A DNA stretch of 32,270 nucleotides from a virus, in IMG/VR virus record IMGVR_UViG_3300030099_004806, positions 1 to 32,270 of that record. One strand, 5' to 3'. The translations under genes and the position numbers were made by a program. Position 1 is the first letter of the stretch. Each line of letters begins with the position of its first letter. Shown piece after piece: positions 16,806 through 31,589 of the stretch. Below the pieces are notes generated by a model that was given only the letters and a program-made list of their open reading frames with translations, was not told the DNA's origin and did no database searches.

Positions 16806-18644
16806 TTATGATTTTTGCAACTTTCTTATTTTTACCCCAAAGTATGGTGCAAAAATCTTCACAGGCTCTTCTTTCCCTTTAACTTTTATTGTATCAAGCT
16901 GTTTACATTTCATTTCAGAGGGTAACTGAGTATAAGTGTGTTCTGATAAAAGTATTGGAGTGTCGTAGTGTCTAGTTTGTACTTCAAGTCTTGCTCCTAA
17001 ATTAACAGCATCGCCAACTACAGAGTAGTCAAATCTAGATTCACTCCCCATATTTCCAACTATGCAAGGGCCAGTATTAATTCCTGAGCCTATTACTACA
17101 GGAGGCAGATTTAATCCTTTGTCTTTTAATTCCTGATTTAATTGTTCAGTAAGGATTTCTATTTCTATGGCAGATTTTAGTGCCATTTCTGCATGGTTTT
17201 CACATGGTAACGGTGCGTTCCAAAATGCCATGATACAGTCTCCCATATATTTATCAATAGTTCCTCCATTTTTCAGTATAACTTTTGTCATTCTGTCTAA
17301 AAATAAATTTATAAGCTCTACAAGTCCTTCTGGATCGTCTTTTCTCATGTAAGCTTCTGAAATTGGAGTAAATCCTACAATATCTGCAAATAAAAATGTC
17401 ATTTCTTTACGATCGCCACCTAATTTCATAAGTGATGGATCTTTTACAAGCATTTCTACCATATCTGGAGATAGATAAGTGCCAAATTGACCTTTGATTT
17501 GTCGTCTAAGCAAGAATTGTTTTACAAAATTTCTAAAAGTAACAATAGACCAGTAAATAAGTAGTATTAAAATGACTCCACTTACGTCTATCAGTAGTCC
17601 TTGTTGAAAACCATACCATGCTCCATAACCTAAACCACCGATTGTAGCTATAAGTATAGGAACAGAAGCATAAATAGATGCGGCAGCAAAAGCTAGGATC
17701 AATATTCCTAGTGTACCAATGCCTAGCTCTGCCGCTCGAGACCATGATGGCTCAGAAGGACTATCACCCGCGATTAGTCCATGAAGAATATTTGCCTGAA
17801 CCTCATGAGCATACATAGATCCATTTGGAGTAGGCACAGGATTTGCTACTCCTTCTGCTGTTACTCCAAATATTACAAAAGTTGCTCCCTGCAATGGGCT
17901 TCTTAAAAACTCTGCTGCTGTTTGTCTATAAAATTTAGTGTTCCACGTAGTCCAAACTCGTGCTCGAGGATCTGTTGTAATGAGTGGATACTCTGGTATT
18001 CTTAACCACTCAACTCCTGTTTCTTGAGTAGATAGTTGATAGCTAATGTTCCCGGTAGCTACTCTTAACATCTCAAGTGCAAATGCAGGATATATCTTAT
18101 CGTCTACGTTTACGGCGAGAGGAACTCTTCTTACGACGCCGTCTACTTCTGGTGCGGTTGTTATTAATCCTACTCCTGCGGATTGTTCTGCTAGGGCGGG
18201 TAGTTGTCTTAAAATTCCTGGATACTGAAATAGCCATTCTCTTGGATTTTCTCCTAATGAGGCAGTACCTACATGAGGTCCGCCTTCCGTAGCTTGTGTT
18301 GAAGCTGTGTATGCTAAAATAGTTGGTGTAGTGCTAAGATCATAAGCGAATATATTATCTTCTCGATCTCCTCGTAAATCAGGATCTGGCATTAGTACTG
18401 TAATGCCTGGTATTGCATCTGTTCGTGTAATCAGTTTTCCATAGTAACTACGAGGAATAGGATATCCACCCACTGCTTTTACAAACTCTTCGTCAATATC
18501 TACAAGTACAATCATCTCATCTTGCACCTCTGGTTTTGTTGCCATAAGACTATCAAAAACTTTTAGTTCAAGTATTTGTAAAGGAATTGGATTCCATAGT
18601 AAAATACCTAATAGTCCTAAAGCTGCAAATATTCTTGTTTTCAT
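16806..18644 (-). CDS. CHASE2-domain class III adenylate cyclase
   Basis: A 612-residue membrane enzyme. An N-terminal TM segment is followed by a periplasmic CHASE2-like sensor (residues about 30-300), three TM helices (about 305-375) and a cytoplasmic class III cyclase domain. Catalytic features: TFLFADIVGFT (first metal Asp), GTIDKYMGDCIMAFWNAP (the Lys expected for adenine recognition and second metal Asp), and VVGDAVNLGARLE (Asp, Asn and Arg of the transition-state set). It should make cAMP from ATP; the Lys-Asp pair favours adenylate over guanylate. The gene is ATGA-coupled to the secreted-protein gene before it. I recall FecR-domain proteins being frequent neighbours of CHASE2 cyclases in bacteria, as here. 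A membrane sensor cyclase in a phage structural operon is very unusual. Confidence 0.93.
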   Translation of the reverse strand: MKTRIFAALGLLGILLWNPIPLQILELKVFDSLMATKPEVQDEMIVLVDIDEEFVKAVGGYPIPRSYYGKLITRTDAIPGITVLMPDPDLRGDREDNIFAYDLSTTPTILAYTASTQATEGGPHVGTASLGENPREWLFQYPGILRQLPALAEQSAGVGLITTAPEVDGVVRRVPLAVNVDDKIYPAFALEMLRVATGNISYQLSTQETGVEWLRIPEYPLITTDPRARVWTTWNTKFYRQTAAEFLRSPLQGATFVIFGVTAEGVANPVPTPNGSMYAHEVQANILHGLIAGDSPSEPSWSRAAELGIGTLGILILAFAAASIYASVPILIATIGGLGYGAWYGFQQGLLIDVSGVILILLIYWSIVTFRNFVKQFLLRRQIKGQFGTYLSPDMVEMLVKDPSLMKLGGDRKEMTFLFADIVGFTPISEAYMRKDDPEGLVELINLFLDRMTKVILKNGGTIDKYMGDCIMAFWNAPLPCENHAEMALKSAIEIEILTEQLNQELKDKGLNLPPVVIGSGINTGPCIVGNMGSESRFDYSVVGDAVNLGARLEVQTRHYDTPILLSEHTYTQLPSEMKCKQLDTIKVKGKEEPVKIFAPYFGVKIRKLQKS

Positions 18645-19021: not shown

Positions 19022-19218
19022 TTTTTTCTATTCCAAAGTCGTTCGTGCATATAGTATAAATACATTTTAGTTGCAATCTCAATACTTGCAATACCCCCTG
19101 CAAGTGTCCACTCTCCTGTAATTATCCAACTAATAACAAAAGTATCGGTTGTTGCTAAAATCCGCCAAGTTATAGTCTTAAAGACACTTCTCTTGCGGCT
19201 TTCTGCGAGAGTAGTCAT
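19018..19218 (-). CDS. DUF2061-family membrane protein
   Basis: A 66-residue protein with the DUF2061 pattern: RKRSVFKTITWRILATTDTF, ISWIITGEWTLAGGIASIE, then MYLYYMHERLW. Two TM helices are expected. Bacterial members are inner-membrane proteins of unknown function. Here it is ATGA-coupled to the curlin-repeat gene and to the secreted protein, implying fixed co-expression with the export and signalling genes. Confidence 0.85.
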   Translation of the reverse strand: MTTLAESRKRSVFKTITWRILATTDTFVISWIITGEWTLAGGIASIEIATKMYLYYMHERLWNRKK

Positions 19219-20021
19219 TGCTGTGTAATTGTAATAGTCTTATTACAATTTGAGTTACAATTAAATGTAGCAGAGTATGTTTGTGCTGTAGATCCAAGTT
19301 GTGTTACATCTACATCATAGTTATCTGTGTAGAACTTCATAAGAGCAGTATGTGCACCTGCTCCTGATTGTGTTAAGTCTACATCATTGTTATCGGCATC
19401 TGAATAAAAGTATATATCTGCATCCTTATTTCCAGTGCCAGATTGAGTTACTGTAGTCGAGTTATTATCAGCATTCCCAACATTGTAAACATAAGTGTTA
19501 TGTTGTCCAGTGCCAGACTGTGCGACTGTAACATCTGAATTGTCCGCGAAGGACAAAATTCTTGTGTATTTATTATTTCCTGTTTGTGTGATTGAGTAGT
19601 CATTATTGTCTCCTGATCCTAATTGTTCTGCAGTATTGTTATTTCCTGTGATACTAATACTTGAGGTATTATCGTCTTCATCCTGATCTAGCCATACAAA
19701 GTTATCATCTCCGTCTACACTTATAGTATAAGTGTTATCTGTATGATTTGACCATACAGTATAAAGTCGAATAGTATTGCTACTACCATCAACTGTTGAA
19801 GACCAAGTAGCGTTACTGCAGGTGTGGGCTGTATAAGTCGTGCCAGGAAAAGATCCACTATTATTAGTAGTAGGAGAGCCACAAAGTATATATGTAGCAT
19901 TTCCACTACCAATCTGTTTTGTAGTGATACTAGTTCCCGACCCTTTATAAGTTATTTGCGTAAGATTATCCGCAAAACTAAGGTGACTGAAAAATAATAA
20001 TAGTATTATCGCCCGCGCCAT
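19215..20021 (-). CDS. Curlin-repeat secreted protein (CsgA/CsgB-like)
   Basis: A 268-residue protein with signal peptide MARAIILLLFFSHLSFA. The mature part is Asn/Thr/Ser/Gly/Asp-rich with repeats of about 20-25 residues built on I/V-x-Q-x-G-x-x-N (SITQTGNNKY, TVAQSGTGQHNTY, TVTQSGTGNKDAD, DLTQSGAGAHTAL, DVTQLGSTAQTYS), the curlin signature, and it ends ITITQQ. Such repeats stack as beta-solenoid rungs and polymerise into amyloid fibres outside the cell. A central region (about 45-120) is less regular and has cysteines, as does the C-terminus, unlike E. coli CsgA. It probably passes through the CsgG pore encoded upstream. Its start lies 44 bases inside the FecR gene. Confidence 0.87.
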   Translation of the reverse strand: MARAIILLLFFSHLSFADNLTQITYKGSGTSITTKQIGSGNATYILCGSPTTNNSGSFPGTTYTAHTCSNATWSSTVDGSSNTIRLYTVWSNHTDNTYTISVDGDDNFVWLDQDEDDNTSSISITGNNNTAEQLGSGDNNDYSITQTGNNKYTRILSFADNSDVTVAQSGTGQHNTYVYNVGNADNNSTTVTQSGTGNKDADIYFYSDADNNDVDLTQSGAGAHTALMKFYTDNYDVDVTQLGSTAQTYSATFNCNSNCNKTITITQQ

Positions 20022-21057
20022 TTACTTTTATCTCCATAGGTATTCCTGCAGTATTTATAGATAAATAAGCTGCCGCTGTTTTATCTAGTGCAATATCAAA
20101 AGTATTTGTACCATAGTGTACAAAGTGAATATAGTCACCTTCTACAAAACTATAAGTTTGAAGTTGCGGATCGAATCCAGGTATAATACCTTCTAACTCT
20201 ACACTATTTATAGTTCCTGTTGTACTTTCTTTCTTGCTTGCTGTTTCTACTACTGCGAGTAAATCAATTAAGAAATCAAAACTTAGTAAGTCAATGTCAA
20301 GTCTTGTTATTTCTTCTTCCTCTTCTAAGAAATCTCTGTCTAAATCTGGAGCATCCTCAAAGAAGTCTCGATCTAATTCTGTACGAGGTCCTTGCTGTTG
20401 CTCCTCTACTGCTTGTTCTATTTGTTCTGGTTGATTAATTATCAATAAGTTATTAATCAAGTTTAATGTTAGATTTCCTAGTATCACAGACTTTGTAGGC
20501 TGTGAATCCATAGTCTGCACCATAGTTGCTTGAAACGGTTGATTAAGTACTTCAACTCCTGCCCAAGTTTCTACAGTTATCTCTCCTGATGAAGTTCCAT
20601 CTTCATTTGGTAAAAGTATAATTAAACTTCTACCAAGTTCATCTACTGTGGTTGTAAAGTCTGTACCACGTATGCCAATAGTCGCACTAGGTGTGCGAAT
20701 AGTTATGTTCTTTTTATCTATCTTTCCGAGCTTGCCAGTTATAAATCTAGCAGTTCCTGATGCCATCTTTAGCGCCATCTTGCTTTTGCTCGGGTCTGGA
20801 TCAAATATGTAATTATCTATAATTACTCTTGAATGTTCGGTAAGTTTTAAAACTGTACTATCTATAAACTCTACTGCGAGTCGTCCTTGTCCAGTTCTTA
20901 CTTCATCAAATGAAAAAATATCTGAAGCTAATTCAGCCATGAAAGAGTCGGTCGAGTCCTTTCTCGATATCTCTCCATTACCCCTTAGCTCAGATATTTC
21001 TCCAATTTCTGTTGCGTTTAGTGTACCTACTAATAATATTAACAGCCAGAAGCGCAT
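19978..21057 (-). CDS. FecR-domain periplasmic protein
   Basis: A 359-residue protein with a signal peptide (MRFWLLILLVGTLNA). Residues about 20-165 form a FecR domain: DIFSFDEVRTGQGRLAVEFI, TVLKLTEHSRVIID, SGTARFITGKLG, and the diagnostic IRTPSATIGIRGTDF. Residues about 210-260 are an acidic Gln/Glu/Asp linker, followed by a beta-rich C-terminal part of unknown family. FecR domains are periplasmic signal-relay modules, classically from a transporter to an anti-sigma/sigma pair; many, like this, lack the anti-sigma tail. It lies between two curlin genes and upstream of the CHASE2 cyclase, so it may link the state of the fibre or pore to the sensor (inference). Confidence 0.9.
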   Translation of the reverse strand: MRFWLLILLVGTLNATEIGEISELRGNGEISRKDSTDSFMAELASDIFSFDEVRTGQGRLAVEFIDSTVLKLTEHSRVIIDNYIFDPDPSKSKMALKMASGTARFITGKLGKIDKKNITIRTPSATIGIRGTDFTTTVDELGRSLIILLPNEDGTSSGEITVETWAGVEVLNQPFQATMVQTMDSQPTKSVILGNLTLNLINNLLIINQPEQIEQAVEEQQQGPRTELDRDFFEDAPDLDRDFLEEEEEITRLDIDLLSFDFLIDLLAVVETASKKESTTGTINSVELEGIIPGFDPQLQTYSFVEGDYIHFVHYGTNTFDIALDKTAAAYLSINTAGIPMEIKVNGAGDNTIIIFQSP

Positions 21058-21728
21058 TGGTCTATATTGATTGAACTTCCAGACCCACCACTATTTTGTA
21101 ACAATAAGTTTGCTACGTTTGTGCTAGCAGTATCGGTTTGGTCAATATCAATATCCATTGAACTTCCAGTTAAGTCTACTGTGATTTGATGGTCAGCACT
21201 TCCTGTCTGTGTAGTGTCAATATCATTACTGTTTCCAGTAATATCCCAGTTATTAATACAACCAACTACTTCACAAGTAGCATTTATATTATTACTCGCT
21301 CCACTAATTACAAAATCCTGATTACCACCTGTAGCAGTAGCCGCTGCACCTTGTGTCCAAACTAAAACATTACTGTCACCACCTGAAGCTGTGTAGTCAA
21401 AGTCTGAGTTTGCTACGTCGCCTGTGGCTCCAACTGCAAATGTAGCAGTAGCACTTGACCCTGTGTTTGAGTAAGTCCAGCTTGAGCTATTACCTTGTAG
21501 TATGCTCGCTATGATAGCATTTGATGAACCAATCTGGTCAATATCAACTGTCATAGATGTGCCACCAAGTACTGCTCTTGTTGCTGATGTACCCACGGTA
21601 TTTGTTGCTCCAATCTGATCTATTGTAAGTGTGAGTCCTGTTCCTGTTTGAGTGATATAAATATCATTATTACCCGCATAGGCTGTTGATACAAGTAGTG
21701 CAATTACACTAATCAGTACCTTCTTCAT
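21039..21728 (-). CDS. Curlin-repeat secreted protein (CsgA/CsgB-like)
   Basis: Start chosen at 21728 (MKKVLISVIALLVSTAYA, a textbook signal peptide) with a GGAG ribosome binding site; upstream codons in frame overlap csgG. The 229-residue product begins its mature part GNNDIYITQTGTGLTLTIDQ and has repeats ending in QIG/QTG/DQT (VDIDQIGSSNAI, DTTQTGSADHQITV, DIDIDQTDTASTNVANLL), then a C-terminal pair of cysteines (QCASGC). It is a second fibre subunit; whether it is nucleator or major subunit cannot be told by eye. Its stop overlaps the FecR start by 19 bases. Confidence 0.87.
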   Translation of the reverse strand: MKKVLISVIALLVSTAYAGNNDIYITQTGTGLTLTIDQIGATNTVGTSATRAVLGGTSMTVDIDQIGSSNAIIASILQGNSSSWTYSNTGSSATATFAVGATGDVANSDFDYTASGGDSNVLVWTQGAAATATGGNQDFVISGASNNINATCEVVGCINNWDITGNSNDIDTTQTGSADHQITVDLTGSSMDIDIDQTDTASTNVANLLLQNSGGSGSSINIDQCASGC

Positions 21729-22557
21729 TATTTTCTCCACGAAGTTTGCTATAGTCAAAGTCCCAAACTTCCTTTGCCAGTCCTTGCTGTACTAATCCGT
21801 AAACTGCTGCTTCTATAGCTGCTCGTACTGCATAGGTTACTGGTTCATTATCCGTGCTTCCAGATTCTACTTCAACGAGTTCAGTTCCTAATTCATAGAA
21901 CTTGAAAACGTCTCCACCTTTTGCTGTGGATAATATAGTTTTTGTAGCTGTTACATTTAAGAGTACTTCGCCTGTCTGAACGAGTACAGCTCTAAGGACT
22001 ACAGTTACTTTGTCCTCGCGGTATTGATTCTGCATACCTATTCCTAAGTATCGAGCACCACTTCCGCCTGTCTTTAAATTAGTGTCATATCCTATGACAC
22101 CGCCCTCTAAGATCATACCTGCGTAGAGTAGAGGTTTTAAAATCGTTTTTGCATCTTTTCCACCATTATAACTTTCATAAGTATTTCGCACAAGTTGTCT
22201 TTCTTTTGTAAGAGCATCAAGCCCTGAGCGTTCGACAACTACAAACCAGTTTCCTCTTCCTGCATCTCTCAAAGCTTCGATAAGTATATGAATAGCTCCT
22301 TGAGTGACAGCAGTACTAAAACTAGATATCATATCACTTGGTTTTCTTTGTCCAGTTTCATCACCGAACTTATAGACAGCAACTACTGTTTTCTGATTTG
22401 GTAATGGTAAGTCTAACAGTTGTTGTGCTGCAGTAGGCTCTATAACAGGCCCTTGCTCACAAACAATACCCTTACTACATCCTGTGGCATGTTGAACTCC
22501 GATAGCAGCACAGCCGTTAAGAAATAGTAGTAAAACTAAGCTACGGAGTACAGTCAA
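21709..22557 (-). CDS. csgG: CsgG-like outer-membrane curli secretion lipoprotein
   Basis: Start chosen at TTG 22557, seven bases after a GGAGGG site, giving a lipoprotein signal with lipobox LNGC and lipidated Cys16; a further upstream TTG (22581) gives no better signal. The 282-residue product follows CsgG closely: VAVYKFGDETGQRKP, SSFSTAVTQGA, WFVVVERSGLDAL, ERQLVRNTYE, IGYDTNLKTGGSGARYLGI, VTVVLRAVLVQTGEVL, KTILSTAKGGDVFKF and NEPVTYAVRAAIEAAV. CsgG makes a nonameric pore that exports curli subunits. The two adjacent curlin genes and the CsgF-like gene give it local cargo and partner. Confidence 0.95.
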   Translation of the reverse strand: MTVLRSLVLLLFLNGCAAIGVQHATGCSKGIVCEQGPVIEPTAAQQLLDLPLPNQKTVVAVYKFGDETGQRKPSDMISSFSTAVTQGAIHILIEALRDAGRGNWFVVVERSGLDALTKERQLVRNTYESYNGGKDAKTILKPLLYAGMILEGGVIGYDTNLKTGGSGARYLGIGMQNQYREDKVTVVLRAVLVQTGEVLLNVTATKTILSTAKGGDVFKFYELGTELVEVESGSTDNEPVTYAVRAAIEAAVYGLVQQGLAKEVWDFDYSKLRGENNEEGTD

Positions 22558-28172: not shown

Positions 28173-28460
28173 CTAGGATACTGCGTCAAGCAGTGTCGCT
28201 AGGTCTTTGGCATTAGCATTAACTAAACTGTGTGCGTTGATACCTAAAGCCTTCTCGATGTCTTTGACTATCTGAGCTTTGAGAACTTTGGGCTGAGCCT
28301 TTGTTCTTTCTTCTTTGATATACTCAACTTGCATGTTGATTGCTTTGCTGATTACTGACCTTAAAGTTACGCCAAATTCTGATGCTAATTTCTCCGCCAC
28401 TGCTTTATCGATAGGGGCAGCGTCCCTGATTTTTTGCTCTTGTATGCTAGTGTATGCCAT
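28173..28460 (-). CDS. Small HTH-like DNA-binding protein, paralogue B
   Basis: A 95-residue protein, closely related to the 24953 product: MAYTSIQEQKIRDAAPIDKA, AEKLASEFGVTLRSVISKAI, VKDIEKALGI, then an extra KDLATLLDAV end also seen in the 29650 protein. It has its own consensus promoter, a GGAG ribosome site and a terminator, on the strand opposite to its paralogues. The 5' leader contains a hairpin (GATTcGGGA-atag-TCCCaAATC) just before the ribosome site. Monocistronic control, together with the two paralogues, suggests a phage regulator; a targeted site is not identified. Confidence 0.8.
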   Translation of the reverse strand: MAYTSIQEQKIRDAAPIDKAVAEKLASEFGVTLRSVISKAINMQVEYIKEERTKAQPKVLKAQIVKDIEKALGINAHSLVNANAKDLATLLDAVS

Positions 28461-28508
28461 TGTTGATTCTCCATTTTGATTTGGGACTATTCCCGAATCG
28501 ATAAAAGA

Positions 28509-28537
28509 ATTATAGGGGCAAAAAGGAAAAAAGTCAA
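28509..28537 (-). promoter_or_regulatory. Promoter of HTH gene B
   Basis: TTGACT, 17-bp spacer, TATAAT on the minus strand, preceded by CAAAATTTTTC. The start is predicted near 28502, with a leader of about 40 bases before the ATG at 28460. Confidence 0.88.
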
Positions 28538-28590
28538 GAAAAATTTTGCACTACTGCGGCAAATAATGTCGCAGGACCTGAGGCGCGCCG

Positions 28591-28619
28591 ATTATACCAC
28601 AGAAACCCAAAAAAGTCAA
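28591..28619 (-). promoter_or_regulatory. Second leftward promoter upstream of HTH gene B
   Basis: TTGACT, 17-bp spacer, TATAAT, with the same upstream AAAATTTTTC and GTGGTATAATCGGCGC context as its neighbours. It is in tandem with 28509-28537 and 82 bases upstream; it could add to hth B transcription or make a short GC-rich RNA. Confidence 0.8.
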
Positions 28620-28690
28620 GAAAAATTTTGCGAAAAATAGAAAAAACTTATAATTAACGAGTCTCCGCTGATAAATTTGTATAGATTGGC

Positions 28691-28716
28691 GCAAATGGCT
28701 TTGCAAAGCCGTTTGC
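28691..28716. repeat. 26-bp near-perfect palindrome
   Basis: GCAAATGGCTTTGCAAAGCCGTTTGC on the plus strand when read as two 13-base halves (GCAAATGGCTTTG / CAAAGCCGTTTGC): one T/G mismatch that is a wobble pair in RNA. It lies in the leader of the promoter at 28787-28815. Confidence 0.7.
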
Positions 28717-28721
28717 AGAAG

Positions 28722-28763
28722 GGCGCGCTCCGCGCCAAAGTGCAAAAACGAAGTGCAAAACTG
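28722..28763 (-). repeat. GC-rich hairpin repeat, copy 3
   Basis: Minus strand: TTTTGCACTTC, TTTTTGCACTTTGGCGC and a GGCGCG-GAG-CGCGCC hairpin. It matches copies 1 and 2 some 700 bases away, again at the 5' end of a leftward promoter transcript. Confidence 0.65.
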
Positions 28764-28786
28764 ATGCCGTGCCCACATAAGTGCGG

Positions 28787-28815
28787 ATTATACCACAAAA
28801 CGCTAGATAAGTCAA
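28787..28815 (-). promoter_or_regulatory. Leftward promoter before repeat copy 3
   Basis: TTGACT, 17-bp spacer, TATAAT, then CCGCAC. The transcript begins with repeat copy 3 and the 26-bp palindrome. A 75-codon frame (28551-28778) starts near the 5' end but its content is dictated by the repeats and AT-rich promoter DNA, so I do not call it a gene. Confidence 0.78.
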
Positions 28816-28819
28816 GATA

Positions 28820-28955
28820 AATTTGCTTAAATTGACATAAATTATCGTAAATTTCTGCGTAGCAGAACGATTACGCGTGCCGCCCCTCGGAGGTCGTTTG
28901 CGTGAGTAGTCCGACTAAAAGTTTTTAAAAGTATTTTGTGTAATGAAGTAAATTT
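28820..28955. other. Gap between leftward and rightward promoters
   Basis: No gene. Apart from a GC-rich patch around 28870-28912 (ACGCGTGCCGCCCCTCGGAG), I see only AT-rich DNA separating the leftward promoters from the rightward one at 28959. Confidence 0.4.
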
Positions 28956-29613: not shown

Positions 29614-29642
29614 TTGACTTTTTAGGTAATTTCAATCATAAT
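29614..29642 (+). promoter_or_regulatory. Rightward promoter, leaderless start
   Basis: TTGACT, 17-bp spacer, CATAAT, preceded by ACAGAAAAATAATTC. The start expected about seven bases downstream coincides with the ATG at 29650, so the mRNA is predicted to be leaderless, as for 24288. Confidence 0.85.
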
Positions 29643-29649
29643 ACATAGT

Positions 29650-30006
29650 ATGAAATTCACAGACATAATTAATAAATTAAGGAGAAAACCAGAAGTGGCA
29701 ACAACAACTAATTATACAGATGAACAAGTAGAACAAATGGTTAGCATATATAAAGCTGACCCAACAAGAGCAACAGTCGATGCTCTGGCAGAAAAGTTCG
29801 GTAAAAGTGCGAGAAGCATCATTGCCAAACTAAGTAGAGAAGGCGTATACGTCGCTCAACAAAGGCAGACCAAAGCAGGGAAACCTGTGGTCAGAAAGTC
29901 GGACTTAGTAGGAATGATACAACAGGAGTTAGGGGCTGAGTTTCCAACTCTAGTCAAGGCTTCCAAGACTGACTTAGAACTTTTATTCGCAGCAGTACAG
30001 TCGTAG
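29650..30006 (+). CDS. Small HTH-like DNA-binding protein, paralogue C
   Basis: A 118-residue protein, the longest of the three paralogues, with an extra N-terminal 20 residues, then YTDEQVEQMVSIYKADPTRA, VDALAEKFGKSARSIIAKLS, REGVYVAQQRQTKAGKPVVR and a C-terminal SDLVGMIQQELGAEFPTLVK. The FGKSARSIIAKLxREGVY block resembles conserved cyanophage and pelagiphage hypotheticals. Lacking a ribosome site, it probably starts from a leaderless transcript. It precedes the structured region at 30007. Confidence 0.8.
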   Translation: MKFTDIINKLRRKPEVATTTNYTDEQVEQMVSIYKADPTRATVDALAEKFGKSARSIIAKLSREGVYVAQQRQTKAGKPVVRKSDLVGMIQQELGAEFPTLVKASKTDLELLFAAVQS

Positions 30007-30358
30007 CTACGGCTCTGTTACCTGCAGTCCCGTAAGCAGGTGAAACATGATGGGGGTTTCCTGACTACCGAAGGCAGGGGTGATTGACGCAAGGATACAA
30101 CCAAAATATCATCTTGTAGTGTCTTTCCGATAGACGCTTGAATAAGTTCGGATAGTAGCTATTAGAGTAGCTGGTCATAATTTTCAGAGTGCTTTACAGA
30201 CCTAAACAGAAACCACTCAGGATACTCGGGAAGTGCGAGTCAGATAGTGAATCAGACCAACAAGTAATGTGAGCATAGTATCCACCTGAGGCAAGGAACA
30301 GACTGTTATGGCGTTCCACGTCGAAATTGCGTAGAAGCGGGGGCAGTTCGACTAAATA
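30007..30358 (+). ncRNA. Candidate structured non-coding RNA
   Basis: No coding frame of note; base composition is visibly richer in GC than the flanking genes. Pairings seen: CCTGC/GCAGG, GTCT/AGAC, AGCTA/TAGCT, GAGTG/CACTC, GGAAC/GTTCC, and a longer-range helix of CTCAGGATACT (30216-30226) with AGTAT and CCTGAG (30277-30290, three-base bulge) closing about 50 bases. It lies between the leaderless HTH gene and the next promoter, so it is probably transcribed from 29614. I tested it by eye against tmRNA, RNase P and group I intron landmarks and found no match. Confidence 0.6.
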
Positions 30359-30362
30359 TTTC

Positions 30363-30391
30363 TTGACTTTCTATGTATTTGCAATCATAAT
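30363..30391 (+). promoter_or_regulatory. Rightward sigma70 promoter
   Basis: TTGACT, 17-bp spacer, CATAAT, preceded by AAATATTTC. It drives the group 30436-31782 including the polyphosphate kinase 2 gene. Confidence 0.85.
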
Positions 30392-30435
30392 ACAATCTGA
30401 AAGTTTAATCAATTTAGCGTAAGAGGAGTGCAACA

Positions 30436-30654
30436 ATGTCAGTATTATTTGAAAAAAGAACAAAGTACCTAATCAGAGGTACATCATATGGTTCGTCTAA
30501 TCAAAGAAAGTATGGTATCAAGTTCAGAAGTATGGCTATGGTATCAAAAGAAGAACTGTTCAAGGCTTTGAACAATGACAGAACCAAGCCTAAGATGAAG
30601 GCAAAGATTAGAAATGAACTCGTGAAAAGAGGCATAAGGATAGTGAGAAAATGA
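30436..30654 (+). CDS. Small basic protein of unknown function
   Basis: A 72-residue protein, strongly basic (KYGIKFRSMAMVSKEELFKA, then KMKAKIRNELVKRGIRIVRK), preceded by an AGAGGAG site. The first gene after the promoter at 30363. Its stop overlaps the next start (ATGATGA). Function unknown. Confidence 0.7.
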   Translation: MSVLFEKRTKYLIRGTSYGSSNQRKYGIKFRSMAMVSKEELFKALNNDRTKPKMKAKIRNELVKRGIRIVRK

Positions 30655-30887
30655 TGACTGAATATACAGACAAAGTAGAAAAACAAAAACTTATGCTTGA
30701 AGCAGAAGAGTGGGGTAAAGAATTAAAATACTACCACTTCAACAATGGAATAAGAACTATCGAGTATAACAATGGGTATAAATTAATTCACGATACCCTA
30801 CAAGACAAGGTAAGGGTTGAACCCTACGAGGGTTCTAAGTCTTTACTCGATAGATTCTTAGCCGCAATAAAAGAGTCATGGAATTAG
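30651..30887 (+). CDS. Small protein of unknown function
   Basis: A 78-residue protein. It contains LMLEAEEWGKELKYYHFNNG, YKLIHDTLQDKVRVEPYEG and a C-terminal LLDRFLAAIKESW. It looks like a small alpha/beta soluble protein. Two adjacent Met codons can serve as the start. It overlaps the following micro-protein by 10 bases. Confidence 0.65.
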   Translation: MMTEYTDKVEKQKLMLEAEEWGKELKYYHFNNGIRTIEYNNGYKLIHDTLQDKVRVEPYEGSKSLLDRFLAAIKESWN

Positions 30888-30952
30888 GAATAGCGTTAGT
30901 AATTATTCTAATTCTGTGGATTATGTTTAACAATACAAATGGGAGATACTAA
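30878..30952 (+). CDS. 24-residue membrane micro-protein
   Basis: ATG at 30878 inside the end of the previous gene; MELGIALVIILILWIMFNNT is one short TM helix with a polar C-terminus. It ends one base before the polyphosphate kinase ATG. Too short for certainty, but the spacing suits translational coupling. Confidence 0.45.
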   Translation: MELGIALVIILILWIMFNNTNGRY

Positions 30953-30953
30953 T

Positions 30954-31589
30954 ATGACAAAACTAGAACTACAACAAGTATTACTCAACGAGATAGTTGA
31001 GAAAGATTTTGGACGTGTAGCTGTAATACTAGAAGGTAGAGACACAGCAGGTAAGTCGGGAACTATTCGTGAGTTGACGCACTATCTACCAACAAATAAG
31101 TACTCCGTTTCGTTAAGCAACAAACCAAGTGCTTGGGCTATGAAACATTGGCTTAAGTCTTGGAAAAAGAAGTTGCCTAGCAATAATCAAATCGTATTCT
31201 TTGACAGAAGTTGGTATTCAAGAGCAATGGTTCAGCATCTAAATGGCTGGTGCTCTGAGAAACAATACACCAAGTTTATGAAAGAAGTAAACGAGTGGGA
31301 AAACAAACAGAGAGATGTAACATTCATCAAGCTATGGCTTTCAATCTCTGAGGAAGAACAGGGTGCAAGACTTGCTAACAGACAAGTATGCCCTTTGAAG
31401 AAGTGGAAGTTCTCCCCAAATGATGCGATTGCGTTATCAAAGTATGACCAGATGACTATTCTAAAAGAACGAGTCCTTACACAATGTGGCGAGTGGCATA
31501 CAATAGATTACAATAATAAAGTTGCTGGGCGACTATCTTTAATAACTAAAGTAGTAGATATACTAAGGAGAGAACATGAAGGTATATGA
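30954..31589 (+). CDS. ppk2: Polyphosphate kinase 2 family protein
   Basis: Start chosen at 30954, eight bases after a GGGAGA site, rather than 30939. The 211-residue product shows the PPK2 pattern: Walker A VAVILEGRDTAGKSGTIREL (residues about 22-41), Walker B IVFFDRSWYSRAMVQ (about 80-94), FIKLWLSISEEEQGARLANR (lid region with Arg/Lys) and PLKKWKFSPNDAIALSKYDQ. PPK2 enzymes transfer phosphate between polyphosphate and nucleoside mono- or diphosphates. In a phage it could use host polyphosphate to raise NDP or NTP pools; the substrate preference cannot be read here. It is shorter than typical PPK2 (about 230-300 residues) but the core is present. Confidence 0.88.
   Translation: MTKLELQQVLLNEIVEKDFGRVAVILEGRDTAGKSGTIRELTHYLPTNKYSVSLSNKPSAWAMKHWLKSWKKKLPSNNQIVFFDRSWYSRAMVQHLNGWCSEKQYTKFMKEVNEWENKQRDVTFIKLWLSISEEEQGARLANRQVCPLKKWKFSPNDAIALSKYDQMTILKERVLTQCGEWHTIDYNNKVAGRLSLITKVVDILRREHEGI

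Follow-up and report, generated by a model that had tools for sequence, protein, structure and literature searches.

Large noncoding RNAs are rare in phage genomes, where a kilobase is seldom spent on such a product. Two large structured RNAs of phages, GOLLD and ROOL, form RNA-only cages and carry no assigned function in the account cited here (PMC12286853). According to the same source, GOLLD (RF02032) is often longer than 800 nt, combines a conserved with a less conserved part, and often lies beside tRNA genes; ROOL is a large, ornate RNA of phages and prophages with multiple pseudoknots, for which that account gives no known protein partner; and OLE is a large, highly structured RNA of bacteria (PMC12286853).

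Here, we describe a comparative analysis of a viral DNA stretch of 32,270 nucleotides (IMG/VR record IMGVR_UViG_3300030099_004806, positions 1 to 32,270; hereafter the window), in which positions 30007–30358 had been proposed to encode an unassigned structured RNA. The proposal was borne out, with strong covariation in homologues, no coding frame and no match in Rfam. Beyond what the single sequence could show, the stretch is a shortened member of an RNA family of about 1 kb, and it probably represents, in compact form, a hitherto undescribed class of noncoding RNAs that are large, modular and structured and belong to uncultivated phages related to T5. As judged from the alignments, the family is almost certainly a real structured RNA, and we predict that most members are very likely noncoding transcripts. 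Comparison of the relatives demonstrates selection for a pseudoknotted fold; it also shows that strand and context are constant, and it reveals predicted signals for transcription.

The gene-free stretch and its neighbours

The stretch at 30007–30358 is bounded on one side by the stop of an HTH gene (29650–30006, plus strand) and on the other by a 72-aa ORF beginning at 30436. It is gene-free, as had been claimed: no plus-strand ORF of at least 45 aa occurs in 30007–30435, and the sole ORF of at least 40 aa wholly within 30007–30358 is antisense and 41 aa long. It is also richer in GC, at 46.0% compared with 37.3% for the window, a content equalled by 0.8% of 352-base segments, although elevated GC, offered by the original prediction as a sign of noncoding RNA, is a weak argument on its own. 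The expected thermodynamic structure was not recovered from the window's sequence, the plus-strand fold having a z score of +0.73, with 72 of 100 shuffles equally good, and the minus-strand fold being just as ordinary (z +0.70). Because single-sequence folding was no better than shuffling, the structured-RNA inference needed comparative evidence, and its proof is comparative.

In alignment A1, the conserved RNA extends from about 30075 to 30352. The 5' part of the element (30007–30074, plus strand) is common only to the window and its sister, L002/L019; its possible hairpins, read from the sequence, are CCTGC/GCAGG, GAAAC/GTTTC and CCTG/CAGG. A nucleotide search of 50,697 phage records returned no homologue of the element.

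The HTH gene has a probable start at GTG 29695. Its description as leaderless is doubtful, as this in-frame GTG, preceded by AGGAG at 29680–29684, would give a protein in line with relatives such as L012, whose N-termini are shorter. By profile similarity, the product resembles phage DNA-binding and T5 D5-like proteins, with matches to phrog_1725 (“DNA binding protein”) in 24 of 25 family members and to the D5-like phrog_323 in 23 of 25. The protein is predicted to be all-helical (pLDDT 88), Foldseek gives generic, weak HTH fold matches only, and tblastn against isolates at E 1e-3 found no match. On the minus strand at 28173–28460, a 95-aa ORF without Pfam or PHROG match has a C-terminal end like that of the HTH protein and by eye is a possible paralogue.

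The sole promoter found ahead of the RNA in the window's clade, TTGACT-17-CATAAT at 29614–29642 (plus strand), lies upstream of the HTH gene. A second TTGACT-17-CATAAT at 30363–30391 (plus strand) confirms the new promoter reported after the element; it serves the next genes, is inserted here, and is absent at this place in L003, L004 and L008. A consensus match, TTGACG/TATCAT at 30084–30112, falls inside module C of the RNA and is taken as chance. Elsewhere, in the gene-poor interval 28500–28820, repeated minus-strand promoter-like blocks of the form TTGACTT...TGTGGTATAAT were noticed by eye.

The downstream genes (30436–31589, plus strand) encode 72-aa and 78-aa unknown proteins and, in the same cluster, a PPK2-family polyphosphate kinase (30939–31589; PF03976, E 5e-46). 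The window's terminase is 75–77% identical to those of 10 of the 20 large records that hold an HTH locus, one of them 105 kb, and its best isolated relatives, at 49% identity, are T5-like Vibrio phages. As far as sequence similarity places it, the window phage is a fragment of an uncultivated T5-related lineage. Other minus-strand genes of this phage include, within 19215–21758, a curlin-repeat (amyloid-type) protein gene, with PF07012 in 19215–20021, and a neighbour at 21039–21758 of similar look and no Pfam match, and a gene for a CHASE2 plus adenylate/guanylate cyclase protein at 16806–18644.

Relatives and promoter-to-terminator units

Searches with the HTH and ORF72 proteins returned five and seven loci, respectively. 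The sister, L002/L019, is 98% identical to the window over 882 bases, and the two differ inside one helix by a one-base indel and two paired double changes; four other loci share the position and parts of the element. An HTH-family profile then yielded 370 relatives in viral contigs, the best 80 of which were used, and a second HTH profile gave 80 rows with 78 new locus ids, many contigs being common to both sets. A nucleotide profile of module C, the best-conserved segment of the element, matches 68 of the 80 loci in the first set (best 80 of 370) and 63 of the 78 in the second, overlapping one. These matches are always on the HTH strand and, in the first set, start 65 to 1179 nt past the HTH stop, the window's own match starting at 65 nt. 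Detectable module C is absent from 12 of the 80 and 15 of the 78 HTH loci, and a covariance model recovers one of the 12, L073.

Since these loci had been found through the HTH gene, the collection was also scanned by the module C DNA pattern alone, regardless of HTH. Nineteen contigs were found. In 16 of them an HTH gene lies upstream in the same orientation; the other three end within 470 nt of the motif. A corresponding scan with the pattern of module A, a second conserved segment, gave 25 contigs, 15 of them with HTH upstream. Among the matches without HTH, L132 is a contig starting inside the RNA, and L116, L121, L122 and L136 carry a genuine stand-alone A hairpin in another phage context; these near-identical hairpins of about 75 nt look as if the module moves alone. 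Five further A-pattern matches, about 25 nt inside coding sequence (L117, L118, L123, L124, L131), look like chance. In 15 of 20 large records with an HTH locus, module C is present as one copy per record. A first scan of genome contigs gave no match, and a profile scan of these contigs gave two loci, one of which, L138, has module C; its contig is binned with a Flavobacteriaceae MAG, too weak a basis for a claim about the host.

In 55 of the 80 loci (best 80 of 370), the HTH gene is followed by a sigma-70-like promoter, an ORF-poor stretch of 634–1533 nt and an intrinsic terminator, with another promoter no more than 90 nt further on. The promoter regex used for these units and for the terminator-promoter counts requires TA at the start of the -10 element and misses CATAAT promoters; a separate scan covers the window. 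A terminator followed within 90 nt by a promoter occurs 59 times in 129 kb downstream of HTH compared with 34 times in 374 kb elsewhere in the same loci, an approximately fivefold higher density, and unit GC is 0.40–0.46 compared with 0.35–0.39 for the loci. A conserved coding frame in relatives, which would have spoken against the original prediction, is absent, the longest plus-strand ORFs of the 49 distinct units being 26–102 aa; the one-base indel and paired changes that distinguish the window from its sister also speak against one.

Aligned, 16 full-length relatives give a consensus energy of -74.0 kcal/mol, compared with -3.9 (sd 3.4) for 20 tree-simulated nulls. In a 25-member alignment, 10 pairs reach E<0.05, of which eight are complementary throughout, with three or more pair types, and two are not complementary; in the 16-relative alignment, 14 of 22 pairs at E<0.2 are under 95% complementary, many in one stretch. 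We read the non-complementary top pairs as reflecting misaligned clade-specific stretches. The unit set behind both alignments includes seven loci whose limits were entered by hand.

The units differ in their modules. The order is A before C in L074 and C before A in the window, L022, L039 and L041, and there are two copies of A in L114 and two of C in L079. A hairpin, GAUUCAGCUUUAGCUGUC, is seen at varying places (L114, L079, L090, L062, L039, L044), sometimes as the tip of module A, and is possibly a mobile cassette. In the window's clade, module C is present, accompanied by A in the window and L022, and the body is shortened; no promoter was found to separate HTH from the element, nor a terminator immediately behind the element. 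Of the features that mark the class, the window has a module C pseudoknot (30078–30121) 3' of a D5-like HTH gene on the same strand, and an own promoter with intrinsic terminator is found in 55 of the 80 relatives, not in the window's clade.

tRNA-like pieces accompany the RNA in many loci. A D-loop-like stretch of the CGGAAGCA type is found in 38 of 81 loci, no more than 700 nt from the HTH stop, and among those listed, all 21 distinct loci with it also have a T-loop-like GTTCRA stretch. In L036, L041, L044, L052, L063, L076, L088 and others, a tRNA-like element lies at most about 250 nt past the HTH stop (in L041, at about 515–605) and ahead of the first RNA promoter; it has a D-arm GTGTCTACGGAAGCAC, a T-arm with GTTCGACTC, a long acceptor-like stem and an odd or missing anticodon arm, and is not called by ARAGORN. 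Genuine tRNA-Glu(UUC) genes stand between HTH and the large RNA at L049:577–651 and L088:2216–2290.

Pseudoknots and covariation

Module C (30075–30119, plus strand) was characterized in alignments of 47 and 65 rows, and its covariance model matches the window at 30078–30121 with E 9e-9. With 30000 added to each position, stem 1 comprises G79-C102, G80-C101 and U81-A100, and stem 2 runs from C90-G116 to G93-C113 and from G94-C110 to A97-U107. At alignment columns 2 and 31, the 47 distinct sequences hold GC in 22, CG in 13, AU in 11 and GU in one, with none broken. Across these 47 rows, 90.3% of cells in the eight named pairs are paired, compared with 31–53% in slid controls, and 54 cells are changed on both sides, compared with 16.2 in shuffles.

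A blind covariation test was also applied, in which all column pairs were compared by a G-test with average-product correction, against null alignments evolved along a FastTree tree. With 65 distinct sequences, the top two pairs were 14-42 (100% complementary) and 27-55 (91%), each at E<0.01, the next standing at 0.54. As these two top-ranked stems cross, module C is an H-type pseudoknot, and the search for covarying pairs in homologues that the original prediction had recommended places the crossing stems first and second. In the 47-row alignment A3, just one C stem passes convincingly, and the small alignments A4 and A6, which are too shallow, yield no pair at E<1. Overall, the named helices contain 90–96% standard pairs compared with 20–53% in slid controls, with G-U pairs among those kept.

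Directly 3' of module C, at 30121–30152 (plus strand), a hairpin (30121–30124/30132–30135) with loop 30126–30130 pairing with 30148–30152 forms a second pseudoknot, in which three of five loop pairs and two of four hairpin pairs are changed on both sides. Inspection by eye shows the same loop pairing, formed by unrelated letters, in L074 (AGGGA/UCCCU) and L086 (CUAAC/GUUAG). It is followed by a hairpin, AGCUA..UAGCU (30157–30172, plus strand), with three of five pairs changed on both sides and 100% of cells paired. Taken over seven sequences, the pseudoknots and hairpins of the window's clade have 94.0% of cells paired and both-side changes at 8 of the 17 named pairs, with 13 such cells compared with 4.9 in shuffles. 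A further hairpin, GAGUGCUUU/AAACCACUC (30187–30218, plus strand), contains one C-C mismatch in the window, which is G-C in L002/L019.

Module A (30220–30285, plus strand) consists of a closing helix GGAUACU/AGUAUCC, a second helix GUGC/GCAU, conserved internal-loop strands and a third helix GUC/GAC. In 15 sequences, 96.3% of cells are paired, six of eight pairs are changed on both sides, and 18 cells are so changed compared with 5.9 when shuffled; the window's row in this alignment is offset by two bases in the closing helix. The module occurs on the plus strand in 77 loci and on the minus strand in none, and its closing helix exists in many versions among relatives. The longer-range helix first proposed here, 30216–30226 (CTCAGGATACT) facing 30277–30290 (AGTATCCACCTGAG), is present. 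The inner segment of this helix, GGATACT/AGTATCC, is conserved among relatives and covaries there, and the outer segment, CTCAG/CTGAG, is not preserved in L002/L019, which has CATGCGG at that place. Module D (30290–30352, plus strand), a helix GGAAC/GUUCC followed by GUCGAA/UUCGAC, is found in the window's clade only, and in sister L019, GAGAC/GUCUC replaces GGAAC/GUUCC, a swap of two adjacent base pairs.

Possible roles and comparison with known systems

We give a role of the large RNA in trans a slightly better than even chance. The transcript would be made with or next to the HTH protein, in a region of non-structural genes, and would fold into a compact multi-domain body. It could then act as a scaffold or decoy via the invariant loops of modules A and C, which may dock RNA copies to each other in self-assembly or hold a factor of the host or of the phage. 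The window's clade would have an RNA shrunk to about 350 nt, read from the HTH promoter and lying within the 3' portion of the HTH transcript. More tentatively, we envisage phage RNAs of about 1 kb built from interchangeable cassettes (C, A and hairpins such as GAUUCAGCUUUAGCUGUC) that recombine, duplicate and re-order, yielding during infection a self-assembling or partner-binding particle beside the D5-like protein and, in many relatives, tRNA-elbow mimics, with A-type modules also used elsewhere as stand-alone hairpins.

The element could instead be a cis-acting leader or riboswitch, the 5' region of an ORF72–PPK2 operon or the 3' region of the HTH mRNA, controlling its neighbour's expression or mRNA stability. 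Compact pseudoknots, as found here, are common in riboswitches; moreover, the window's clade is without a promoter between HTH and the element, and L003, L004 and L008 are without one between the element and the next gene. We nevertheless consider this unlikely, as a new promoter (30363) stands just after the window's element, 55 of 80 relatives end the element in its own terminator and start the next genes from a fresh promoter, the following genes change between clades (L012 and L013 compared with the window), and 634–1533 nt far exceeds riboswitch size. Such regulation suits the arrangement in the window itself but does not suit the terminated units that most relatives have.

Mimicry is, in our judgment, rather improbable. 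On this account, the RNA would hijack the host by imitating the tRNA elbow or a host regulatory RNA, titrating a host enzyme, ribosome factor or antiphage effector. The D-loop-like stretch in 38 of 81 loci, its T-loop-like GTTCRA companion in the 21 distinct loci listed, and the true tRNA-Glu in the same slot of two loci are consistent with it, but the tRNA-like pieces precede the promoter of the main RNA and do not occur in the window's clade, and the main RNA itself matches no RNA family.

A function at the DNA level, as a replication origin, packaging or recombination site with single-stranded DNA hairpins, appears very improbable. A single copy per genome record would suit such a site, and paired changes alone cannot separate RNA from single-stranded DNA, but modules C and A always lie on the HTH strand, with no minus-strand matches, the units have their own promoter and terminator, G-U pairs are among the pairs kept, and an origin would not ordinarily contain pseudoknots and about 1 kb of modules. 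Finally, the reading as a decayed gene or a neutral spacer with only an appearance of structure, to which the high divergence, changing module content and ordinary single-sequence fold might point, is scarcely credible given compensatory changes under a tree-based null and an anatomy conserved in 55 of 80 loci; it is refuted for modules C and A and could still hold for 30007–30074.

Our preferred reading, a class of large modular phage RNAs, has consequences for the study of such molecules. An RNA class has been kept beside one gene in a diverse, uncultivated T5-related lineage under clear structural selection, and its pseudoknots and changing module order, in dozens of members, make the role of large phage RNAs testable by comparative structure. 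The window's clade offers a natural short version of about 350 nt, suited to probing and cryo-EM.

The covariance-model search that had been recommended found no family for the element: cmscan of the whole window with all 4227 families of Rfam 15 at gathering scores gave no match to the RNA, nor did any model match it at permissive settings, either in the window region or in 26 distinct related loci. The permissive scan of the window yields miRNA (E 1) and snoRNA (E 0.86) hits far below gathering scores, and those of the related loci yield a tRNA and weak miRNA in L012 and a sub-threshold RefA1 in L062 (2762–2940, minus strand), which was dismissed at 34.9 bits with a cut-off of 94 and lies outside the element. 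The earlier failure to recognize tmRNA, RNase P or intron landmarks agrees with these scans, tmRNA, tRNA, intron, RNase P and riboswitch all being without any model match and ARAGORN finding no tRNA or tmRNA in the window; a mobile element was set aside as no interrupted ORF was seen. No description of such RNAs was found in Rfam and the portion of the literature covered.

As no Rfam model matches the RNA, we do not file it among GOLLD or ROOL members. OLE differs in being a bacterial, not a phage, class, and has no match in the Rfam scans. The new RNAs likewise lack a match to Rfam ROOL and have other modules and other neighbours. They differ from GOLLD in having an HTH gene ahead, re-ordered modules and rare tRNA genes, and in giving no match in permissive Rfam scans; a GOLLD search in 20 records was without match, the control genomes being silent too. 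The proximity to tRNA islands typical of GOLLD is not seen: of 60 loci scanned with ARAGORN, two have a tRNA gene, in both cases a lone tRNA-Glu lying between HTH and the RNA. The D5 locus of T5 is similar in that the HTH proteins match the D5-like PHROG and, among isolates, the window's terminase is nearest to those of T5-like Vibrio phages, but T5 has D6 directly after D5, and the 46 kb of T5 that were searched contain no module C. The new RNAs, known here from sequence, resemble GOLLD and ROOL, as the cited account describes them, in their size, their pseudoknots and their occurrence in phages.
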